A stretch of 64,000 bases of DNA, taken from NCBI RefSeq assembly GCF_024055595.1, contig NZ_JAMXOF010000002.1, forward strand, positions 496,001 through 560,000. The letters are read 5' to 3'. The notes under the pieces are model-generated. The model was not told the DNA's origin, searched no databases, and was given only the letters and a program-made list of their open reading frames with translations. Positions 4,762 through 6,419 of this stretch are shown here, in pieces; the first letter of the stretch is position 1, and every line of letters begins with the position of its first letter. This DNA comes from Mucilaginibacter aurantiaciroseus. GTDB taxonomy: Bacteria > Bacteroidota > Bacteroidia > Sphingobacteriales > Sphingobacteriaceae. The translations under genes were made by a program, and so were the position numbers.

Positions 4762-4769
4762 TACCTTTG
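4762..4769 (+). promoter_or_regulatory. rpsU promoter, Bacteroidota -7 element
   Basis: TACCTTTG is an exact match to the Bacteroidota TAnnTTTG box, 28 bases before the rpsU start. I see no convincing -33 TTTG at the usual distance. Confidence 0.6.
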
Positions 4770-4778
4770 ACGTCCCTG

Positions 4779-4787
4779 AAAGGAGGT
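4779..4787 (+). promoter_or_regulatory. extended Shine-Dalgarno sequence of rpsU
   Basis: AAAGGAGGT is a nine-base perfect complement to the 16S 3' end, 10 bases before ATG. Neighbouring genes in this window almost all lack SD sequences. In Bacteroidota the anti-SD is known to be masked by S21 and neighbouring proteins, and strong SD elements on rpsU are associated with autoregulation. Confidence 0.8.
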
Positions 4788-4797
4788 ATTTGGAATT

Positions 4798-4992
4798 ATG
4801 ATCATTATTAACGTAAAAGACGGCGAATCATTAGACAAAGCATTAAAACGCTTTAAAAAGAAATTTGAAAAAACGGGTGTTTTAAGAGAACTGCGCAGTC
4901 GCCAGGCTTTCGAGAAAAAATCAATTACCCGCAGGCATGAAATTAAACATGCTATTTACAAGCAAAATATGAATTTAGAAACTACTGTTTAA
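4798..4992 (+). CDS. rpsU: 30S ribosomal protein S21
   Basis: 64-aa basic helical protein of the small-subunit platform next to the 16S 3' end. Family start MIIINVKDGESLDKALKRFKKK and the basic EKKSITRRHEIKHA segment are clear. It has its own TAnnTTTG promoter and an unusually strong SD. It leads the rpsU-xerC-hpf group, a gene order common in Bacteroidota. The C-terminus is slightly extended relative to short enterobacterial forms, as usual for the phylum. Confidence 0.95.
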   Translation: MIIINVKDGESLDKALKRFKKKFEKTGVLRELRSRQAFEKKSITRRHEIKHAIYKQNMNLETTV

Positions 4993-5080
4993 TTCTTCTT
5001 CGAAAAGAATTTACAGATTTTCTTGTCACTATAAAAAAACTATTTGTACATTCAATTTATTGGGTGTTCAAATAGTTTTT

Positions 5081-5998
5081 ATGTTTTCAGATAAGTTTAT
5101 ACAGTACGTCAGTTTTGAGAAGAGGTACTCGCCCCATACTGTATTAGCTTACAAAAGCGACCTGGAGCAGTTCGTGCTTTTTTTGAACCCGCCCAACGCC
5201 ATACCACAGGTTACCCACCCATCAGAAATTACCCATCACGACATCCGCAACTGGATGGTTGCCCTAATGGATAATAAACTATTAGCCCGCTCTGTTAACC
5301 GTAAAATTGCCACGCTGCGCAAATACTTTAAATTTTTATTGCAAGAGGGAGAGGTTACCATTAACCCAACATCGCGCATTACTGCGCCCAAAGTACCCAA
5401 GAACCTGCCAACCGTTGTTGACGGCGATAAACTTACCCGCATGTTGGATGGCAGGATGGACGCAACGGGCGACGATCCTATTTTTTCAAACGACTTTTCC
5501 GGCCTGCGCGATAAACTAATTATTGAAATGCTTTTTGGCACCGGCATGCGCCTGGCCGAAATTACGGGCATAAAAGATGAAGATATAAATTGGTACGAAA
5601 GCACTGTTAAAGTTTTAGGTAAACGCAACAAACAGAGGATAATACCCTTAAATAACGAACTTATACAACTGTTAAAGCGTTATGCAGAGGCGAAAAAAAG
5701 TGAAAATTTTAATAACAATTCCTTAATGTTACTCGTTACAAATAAAGGAGCAAGCGCATATTCAAAGCTTATATATTTAATAGTGCAAAAGTACTTGTCG
5801 CATATATCAACTCAGGATAAACGCAGCCCCCACGTGTTAAGGCATACGTTTGCGACCAGCTTGTTAAATAATGGTGCCGATTTAAACGCGATAAAGGAGT
5901 TATTGGGCCATGCTAACCTTAGCGCAACGCAAATTTATACGCACAATTCAGTAGAACGACTTAAATCTATTTATAAACAAGCCCATCCAAAGGCATAA
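5081..5998 (+). CDS. xerC: site-specific tyrosine recombinase XerC
   Basis: 305-aa tyrosine recombinase that resolves chromosome dimers with a XerD partner. The N-terminal SAM-like DNA-binding domain (about 1-100) precedes the catalytic domain. All catalytic residues are present: Arg157 (GTGMRLAEI), Lys181 (LGKRNK), His251 and Arg254 (HVLRH), His277 (LLGHANL) and the nucleophile Tyr286 (IYTH). The frame opens earlier at a TTG (5060), but ATG 5081 starts the normal N-terminus. It sits between rpsU and hpf with no mobile-element context, so this is the housekeeping enzyme and not a phage integrase. Confidence 0.93.
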   Translation: MFSDKFIQYVSFEKRYSPHTVLAYKSDLEQFVLFLNPPNAIPQVTHPSEITHHDIRNWMVALMDNKLLARSVNRKIATLRKYFKFLLQEGEVTINPTSRITAPKVPKNLPTVVDGDKLTRMLDGRMDATGDDPIFSNDFSGLRDKLIIEMLFGTGMRLAEITGIKDEDINWYESTVKVLGKRNKQRIIPLNNELIQLLKRYAEAKKSENFNNNSLMLLVTNKGASAYSKLIYLIVQKYLSHISTQDKRSPHVLRHTFATSLLNNGADLNAIKELLGHANLSATQIYTHNSVERLKSIYKQAHPKA

Positions 5999-6000
5999 AA

Positions 6001-6006
6001 AGGAGG
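6001..6006 (+). promoter_or_regulatory. strong Shine-Dalgarno sequence of hpf
   Basis: AGGAGG, extended upstream by AAA, ends four bases before the hpf ATG. Besides the rpsU site it is the only clear consensus SD I found just ahead of a start codon in the window. Confidence 0.75.
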
Positions 6007-6010
6007 AAAA

Positions 6011-6358
6011 ATGAAAATTACCGTGCAATCTATTCACTTTAGTGCAGACCAGAAATTGTTGGATTTTATTCAGAAGAAGGTAGATAAGCTGGAAACCTTT
6101 TTTGATCACATCATAAGTGGTGAAGTATATTTAAAATTAGAGAATGTAGATGATGAGGCAAACAAGATAAGCGAGATTAAAATTTTGCTGCCGGGAAACC
6201 AAATTTTTGCAAAAGAAAAGTGCAAAACGTTTGAAGAGGCTACCGATTTGGTGGTTGAGAGCCTTCGCAAACAGATAGAAAAGCATAAAACAAAAAAATC
6301 TATAGCTGCCGAAGCTGCTAAAAAAGCAGCTCTTATTACGGAAGAGGATGATTTTTAA
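6011..6358 (+). CDS. hpf: ribosome hibernation-promoting factor, short form (HPF/RaiA family)
   Basis: 115-aa S30AE-domain protein that binds the decoding region of idle ribosomes during slow growth. The N-terminus (KITVQSIHFSADQKLLDFI) and the central KLENVDDEANKISEIKI beta strands match the family. The Lys-rich C-terminal helix ends in an acidic EEDDF. It lacks the long-form dimerisation domain. It lies 12 bases after xerC, has a consensus SD, and is closed by a strong terminator. Confidence 0.92.
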   Translation: MKITVQSIHFSADQKLLDFIQKKVDKLETFFDHIISGEVYLKLENVDDEANKISEIKILLPGNQIFAKEKCKTFEEATDLVVESLRKQIEKHKTKKSIAAEAAKKAALITEEDDF

Positions 6359-6387
6359 GCATATATGAGCGCTGATTTGTAGCGCAG

Positions 6388-6419
6388 ATCGGCAGGTTTA
6401 AAGCCTGCCGATTTTTTTT
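6388..6419 (+). terminator. Rho-independent terminator after hpf
   Basis: Perfect nine-base stem ATCGGCAGG/CCTGCCGAT with a 7-base loop followed by a run of seven T. Confidence 0.92.

Follow-up and report, generated by a model that had tools for sequence, protein, structure and literature searches.

Comparative sequence analysis indicates that hpf, the gene of a hibernation promoting factor (HPF), is a real and selected Shine-Dalgarno (SD) gene in the SD-poor lineage of Mucilaginibacter aurantiaciroseus. The whole explanation put forward here, namely that the selected SD of hpf is preferred by ribosomes with an exposed anti-SD and that HPF output would follow the free 30S tails, is given about even odds (roughly 0.5). 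The window analyzed is a stretch of 64,000 nucleotides from this genome (3.93 Mb, nine contigs), and all coordinates below are window positions on the + strand. An earlier note on the same DNA had ascribed strong SDs to rpsU and hpf only and had linked ribosome composition to hibernation through them; its interpretation is partly supported.

The rpsU-xerC-hpf locus

In this part of the window, rpsU, xerC, and hpf are followed by a terminator-like hairpin and then by tRNA genes and tuf. Ahead of rpsU, TACCTTTG at 4762..4769 is a candidate promoter -7 element that matches TAnnTTTG, which we take to be the Bacteroidota -7 consensus, and TANNTTTG is found no more than 80 nt from rpsU in all 65 of the 65 scored loci of Mucilaginibacter, Pedobacter, and Sphingobacterium. 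With the -7 element at this position, the rpsU SD would fall near the 5' end of the mRNA. The rpsU gene (4798..4992) encodes bS21, a protein of 64 aa in which Tyr54 is present and whose identity rests on domain searches (PF01165, E 2.8e-18; TIGR00030). Between rpsU and xerC lies an A+T-rich hairpin, AAACTATTTG...CAAATAGTTT (5030..5081, ends approximate), the 3' arm of which extends to the xerC ATG. Such an A+T-rich hairpin (window 4990-5100), running up to the xerC ATG, is common to the inspected Mucilaginibacter loci; the inspected Pedobacter loci have a terminator-like hairpin with a T run between the two genes instead. Given the hairpins that separate them, rpsU and xerC-hpf probably belong to different transcripts.

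The xerC gene (5081..5998) encodes a XerC/XerD-like tyrosine recombinase, for which recomb_XerC is the best NCBIfam match, under its cut-off; the protein searches were run with 5096-5998. Its stop codon, TAA at 5996-5998, directly adjoins the hpf SD, AAAGGAGG (5999..6006), which is followed by hpf itself (6011..6358). The 115-aa product is identified as HPF by PF02482 (E 5.6e-21, 75.5 bits against a cut-off of 23.7) and TIGR00741 (50.1 bits, cut-off 40.9), and in a protein search it is closest to Mucilaginibacter proteins, with 96% identity to that of M. terrigena. PF02482 is the sole domain in the 115 aa, and the second, C-terminal (dimerising) domain of long HPF is absent; the protein is therefore of the short type. 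Past hpf, a terminator-like hairpin, ATCGGCAGG...CCTGCCGAT, is followed by a T run (6386..6419).

No hpf-proximal promoter is claimed, as TACGTTTG at 5845, inside xerC, falls within conserved RHTFAT codons and TANNTTTG occurs no more than 250 nt from hpf in just 15 of 79 loci. None of the scanned family and class loci contains a fused XerC-HPF reading frame. PDB chain 9i5v_14, deposited as 'RaiA' (401 residues), has a XerC match at residues 11-297 and an HPF match at 307-399.

SD strength in the window and the genome

The 16S rRNA of this genome ends in GGCTGGAATACCTCCTTTCT. Ahead of the rpsU ATG (4798), AAAGGAGGT at 4779-4787 places the end of GGAGG 11 nt from the start codon, and the extended SD, GAAAGGAGGTATT (4778..4790), is a 13-nt complement of the 16S 3' tail, with a duplex energy of -18.4 kcal/mol. 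The hpf SD lies 4 nt from its ATG and pairs with the same tail over 8 nt at -12.2 kcal/mol. Both SDs are thus strong, as had been claimed, and they are unlike in kind: that of rpsU is extended and widely spaced, whereas that of hpf is core-only, pairing with CCUCCUUU at close spacing. In particular, the rpsU SD pairs the variant AAUA part of the 16S tail, and hpf pairing stops at GGAGG. At this place the tail of the genome reads AAUACCUCC (L032, around 1745-1775), which the rpsU SD tracks (GGAGGUAUU); the corresponding place in the E. coli 16S tail reads AUCACCUCC. All energies given here were computed for the bare duplex, leaving out the mRNA context, and in most cases with CCUCCUUU, the common core, as the partner; an SD is called strong at -9 kcal/mol or stronger.

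A scan based on a simple ORF caller covered 188 genes of this genome, 59 in the window and 129 from 160 kb elsewhere. Among the 59 window genes, rpsU and hpf alone reach -9. Outside the window, one of the 129 genes does so (-10.4, start uncertain). At -12 or stronger there are only rpsU and hpf in the 188 genes, and 1 of 188 mock regions. At -9 or stronger, three SD matches stand against four mock matches, so that strong SDs are generally no commoner than chance in this genome. The SDs of rpsU and hpf are held to be real because of their conservation; strength alone would not prove it.

Across the whole genome, the pattern AAGGAGG-N2-14-ATG occurs at 45 sites, compared with 37 for a reversed-pattern control. 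Those of the 45 that are likely true starts belong to rpsU, hpf, rpsB, rpsG, a gene resembling ribonucleotide reductase, and a small number of further genes (names read from translations), and GGAGG is present at rpsR too. The claim that only rpsU and hpf bear strong SDs thus stands for the window and falls for the genome as a whole, where rpsB, rpsG, and rpsR are to be added. AAGGAGG was also seen 5-7 nt ahead of the likely starts of a ribonucleotide-reductase-like protein, a 155-aa protein, and a 482-aa protein (L007, L013, and L021; names read from translations), and at the same distance from each start of two similar 87-aa proteins (L177 and L178), which may, at a guess, be part of a mobile element.

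Conservation in Sphingobacteriaceae

The family set consists of 80 loci of Mucilaginibacter, Pedobacter, and Sphingobacterium obtained by protein search, and pairing energies were computed for 79 of their hpf leaders. Homology served to choose the starts; a gene was passed over if it lay outside the locus or if its start deviated by more than 8 codons. GGAGG stands ahead of the hpf ATG in 80/80 loci, at a spacing of 4 nt in 54 and 5 nt in 26, and the SD variants, mainly AAAGGAGG and in some loci AGAGGAGG, keep this core. In the same three genera, hpf reaches -9 or stronger in 79/79 scored leaders and rpsU in 63/65. No strong SD was found in these loci on tuf, secE, or nusG (0/47 each), rplK, rplA, or rplJ (0/45 each), rplL (0/44), or xerC (0/78), nor in the hpf mock region (0/79). 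The genes upstream, scored in fewer loci, gave 1/4 for pth, 1/23 for the next gene, 0/27 for the peptidase, and 0/28 for the CarbD gene. Moreover, the hpf SD is strong in 42 of 43 further family genomes, which are part of 143 with an HPF match: 29 of the 30 best-scoring (the window genome among them) and 13/13 from other genera. In these further genomes rpsU is strong in 24/29, and in 8/11 from other genera; weak rpsU leaders that were re-scored with a long 16S tail gave -14.2, -14.1, -12.0, and -10.5. Conservation of the hpf SD among relatives had been set beforehand as the test of the earlier proposal, and both sets bear it out.

Third codon positions agree pairwise in just 45% of cases in hpf and 57% in the last 25 xerC codons, so that presence in 80/80 loci goes beyond mere relatedness. 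This presence is the result, as the pairwise identity of 1.00 for GGAGG itself holds by construction (the loci were aligned on it). The A-rich sequence on either side of GGAGG is likewise conserved (86-91% pairwise), so that the context is maintained together with the SD. A purine-rich intergenic stretch that resembles an SD by chance, or through an annotation artefact, might be read into the small surplus of AAGGAGG-ATG pairs over the control in this genome and into the one mock region that reaches -12. However, GGAGG in every one of 80 loci across wide divergence, and its recurrence in 15 other families (see below), rule out a chance origin of the hpf SD and leave this explanation with next to no credence.

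It has also been considered that the motif is the target of another RNA or protein (a small RNA, a binding protein, or an mRNA stability element) rather than of the anti-SD. Nothing direct favors this, apart from a mean unpaired probability of GGAGG of just 0.42 in hpf versus 0.64 in rpsU (mRNA folding, without a shuffled control). Against it, the motif is the anti-SD complement, stands at SD spacing, and keeps its GGAGG core in variants, and such a target is judged quite improbable.

Three further ribosomal protein genes carry an SD in 10/10 Sphingobacteriaceae tested, namely rpsR, rpsG, and rpsB, with pairing no weaker than -8.5, -9.0, and -9.6, respectively. The test of these genes used 30 chosen genomes, and rpsB starts were set by an anchored motif, with those of G231 and G301 doubtful.

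Distribution across Bacteroidia

The class sample comprised 158 genomes, of which 148 outside Sphingobacteriaceae (f1) had an HPF match; 128 were scored, and 19 plus G261 (a 10-base stub) were left out. A strong hpf SD was found in 28/128 genomes and 15/55 families; it recurs in the class, and most genomes (100/128) have none. The controls gave 0/69 for xerC and 5/128 for the hpf mock region; the comparison of hpf with xerC (Fisher P 2e-6) ignores relatedness and is descriptive. The pairing is -12.2 in the window and -9 to -12 elsewhere. Tyr54 of bS21 is present in 22/22 hpf-SD class loci with readable rpsU and in 58/68 others. Some genomes encode second PF02482 proteins; two of these (L389 and L454) were scored and are without an SD, and for the others (L396-L401, L455) phmmer gave no match.

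Among the 22 class genomes with a strong hpf SD in which rpsU was scorable, 21 have no strong SD on rpsU. Where both genes were scorable (n=90), 21 genomes have the SD on hpf only, 14 on rpsU only, 1 on both, and 54 on neither; the association is negative in direction (Fisher P 0.10, relatedness ignored). On a quick tree of XerC, HPF, and bS21 (139 rows; 42/136 inner branches open), the hpf SD changed at least 15 times and the rpsU SD at least 13 times, and an independent-pairs test had 4 and 10 pairs only, of which so few were informative that a P of 0.05 was beyond reach; the test is compatible with a link as well as with none. The co-occurrence counts show no positive link between the two SDs, and the special tie between rpsU and hpf that had been proposed finds no support in their rare co-occurrence in the class.

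In 16 other-family genomes chosen for their hpf SD, -9 is reached by rpsG in 0/16, rpsB in 2/16, rpsR in 4/16, and rpsU in 0/14 scored. Of the five genes hpf, rpsU, rpsR, rpsB, and rpsG, hpf is the sole one with a strong SD in 12 of the 16 (rpsU unscored in two of the 12), with rpsU at -8.9 in G173 and -8.8 in G282, and rpsR at -8.8 in G247, falling just short. In family f20, 22/24 hpf genes reach -9 or stronger (the other two are at -7.3) and rpsU in 0/13 scored. Families in which hpf is the sole strong SD of the five genes tested offer clean test systems.

In family f21 the anti-SD is altered to UCUCA, as read in one member (G170), and an SD matching the altered sequence (-7 or stronger) is found on rpsU in 21/26 and on hpf in 0/27. 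Because hpf has no SD in f21, this family gives no covariation proof for the hpf SD. Family f9 (G158, G199, G233, G261, and G287) has the 16S tail AACATCTCCTTT, in which the core of the anti-SD differs by a single base; the four members scored have no strong hpf or rpsU SD against the common, not the altered, core.

Function of the hpf SD

The abutment of the SD on the xerC stop in the window suggests termination-reinitiation, in which AAAGGAGG, just past the stop, would retain ribosomes that have completed xerC and let them start again on hpf. A precedent for an SD-like sequence acting in elongation is the prfB frameshift site, where Bacteroidia keep such a sequence (PMC8710568), and the gap to xerC is 20 nt or less in 18/24 class genomes with the SD versus 46/87 without it, a weak excess (Fisher P 0.064). 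However, 10 of the 28 SD-bearing class genomes have no close upstream xerC: the gap is more than 20 nt in six, and the fetched stretch holds no xerC match in four. Six f20 loci (L444, L449-L453) keep GGAGG with TAnnTTTG 34-61 nt before the hpf SD and no xerC end in 70 nt, and in two of their genomes (G210 and G271) no xerC match was found in the fetched stretch. The 46 class genomes in which the gap is no wider than 20 nt and the SD is missing likewise argue against reinitiation. An SD confined to a close upstream stop, that is, xerC-hpf translational coupling, is contradicted by the 10 genomes and the f20 loci; coupling is weakened, and reinitiation is regarded as unlikely.

A stronger competitor grants the hpf SD a use but no regulatory role, with leaky SD pairing and the A-rich context setting a high HPF output in resting cells at any bS21 level. 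Like SD-less starts, the hpf leader carries A at positions -3, -12, and -13 (taken from PMC9976891), its A-rich flanks are conserved, the hpf SD is found in families without an rpsU SD, and rpsB, rpsG, and rpsR also have SDs in Sphingobacteriaceae. A plain booster would nevertheless be unexpected, because in F. johnsoniae wild-type output fell somewhat when tuf was given a strong SD, as reported in PMC9976891, and because AAGGAGG-N4-9-ATG is at or under its reversed control in 17/26 genomes. The counts of this pattern against the control speak against a broad preference for SDs in these genomes; they are 338 versus 327 in eight Sphingobacteriaceae and 681 versus 845 in 15 other hpf-SD genomes, with depletion in G156 (14 versus 45) and G273 (36 versus 74) and enrichment in G239 (50 versus 18), G016 (55 versus 37), and G301 (53 versus 39). 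Published tables put SD genes at approx. 1-2% in Bacteroidota (PMC10783764). Non-regulatory use is a serious possibility, to which roughly a third of the credence is assigned.

The regulatory reading of the hpf SD draws on work in F. johnsoniae, where bS21, bS18, and bS6 are reported to hide the 16S tail (PMC9976891) and rpsU is autoregulated by ribosomes without bS21 (McNutt 2023, PMC9976891). The hiding of the anti-SD by S21 and the autoregulation of rpsU, both invoked in the earlier note, were thus already published for this species. According to the same report, translation from strong SDs goes up when bS21 is mutated or depleted, to a modest degree with a core-type SD and more so with the extended rpsU SD; the core-type SD AGGAGGU put on tuf responds to bS21 loss by 70% to over 2-fold, and a change of bS21 Tyr54 raised translation of an SD reporter (PMC9976891). 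There, rpsU is marked by extended pairing below -13, which is tied to autoregulation, and its native leader is short (25 nt). SD control in Flavobacteriales is described as limited to rpsU, the all-gene screen covering Flavobacteriales only, and nearly all Sphingobacteriales are reported to have rpsU of the extended-SD type (PMC9976891). The bS21-less ribosomes of F. johnsoniae are an experimentally demonstrated case of specialized bacterial ribosomes. In the window, rpsU at -18.4 lies well beyond the threshold of -13, and hpf at -12.2 is weaker than it.

As a core-type SD on tuf responds to bS21 loss and the window bS21 has Tyr54, hpf is expected to respond like the tuf-SD reporter. More HPF at low bS21 would be consistent with the published reporter data, and such a rise would not be peculiar to hpf. 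In this mechanism, the small set of translation genes with SDs in Sphingobacteriaceae (rpsU, rpsR, rpsB, rpsG, and hpf) would be the preferred starting places of ribosomes whose anti-SD lies open. In the absence of bS21 (or bS18), or after its loss, translation of hpf might rise, perhaps about twofold, and HPF production would partly report the number of 30S subunits with a free 3' tail; HPF may then idle and shield those subunits. In support of this explanation, the hpf SD is present also at loci without a close upstream xerC and in genomes with an SD-less rpsU.

A more far-reaching version concerns the integrity of the 30S subunit. The proteins bS21, bS18, uS2, and uS7 are platform and exit-site proteins, and the SDs of Sphingobacteriaceae might form a regulon for 30S integrity that would also restore them. 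The hpf SD would then let the synthesis of HPF report on exposed 16S 3' tails, with bS21-less 30S subunits initiating better on hpf and also offering their tail to RNase R. In B. subtilis, the first 30S binding site of RNase R is reported to overlap that of bS21 on the platform; RNase R is further reported to start at the anti-SD end, and its attack to be blocked by HPF in S. aureus (PMC10901742, PMC8406268). If 30S subunits without bS21 are both at risk and the best translators of hpf, vulnerable ribosomes would order their own protector. However, in PMC10901742 it is long HPF that clashes with RNase R, by way of its linker and its C-terminal domain, and the odds of this version, which had stood slightly higher, were lowered because the short HPF has neither; it is rather doubtful.

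Relation to known systems

The closest parallel is the rpsU system of F. johnsoniae, which likewise has a strong SD in an SD-poor lineage and a bS21 with Tyr54. The window rpsU resembles its F. johnsoniae counterpart in the extended type of its SD (13 bp) and, probably, in a short leader. In contrast, hpf is not a ribosomal protein gene, its SD is core-only (8 nt) with a spacing of 4-5 nt in Sphingobacteriaceae, and the SD is kept in families with an SD-less rpsU; hpf would be cross-regulated, not autoregulated. SDs on rpsR and other ribosomal genes are also on record for some Bacteroidia orders (Jha 2021, as cited in PMC9976891 and PMC8710568). The hpf SD is like them in being core-type, at about -8 to -12 kcal/mol, and in Sphingobacteriaceae it accompanies the rpsR, rpsB, and rpsG SDs; it differs in that the latter genes rarely reach -9 in the 16 other-family hpf-SD genomes. 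The prfB frameshift site of Bacteroidia, as described in PMC8710568, is similar in keeping an SD-like sequence despite an occluded anti-SD, and differs in lying within a coding region and acting in elongation.

In other bacteria, the control of RMF, HPF, and RaiA has the same output, the amount of a hibernation factor. As far as titles and the beginnings of abstracts tell, these controls work through transcription factors (CodY), CsrA, and polyamines, and none senses ribosome composition via an SD. A literature search covering the same parts of papers brought up no SD of hpf in Bacteroidota. Whereas autoregulation of rpsU is already known, as are the SDs of rpsR and certain other ribosomal genes, a conserved SD on a non-ribosomal gene for a hibernation factor, in a number of families and frequently where rpsU has none, is new as far as this literature search goes. 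It points to a target of bS21-less ribosomes beyond ribosomal proteins and offers a direct route to testing whether ribosome composition controls dormancy.
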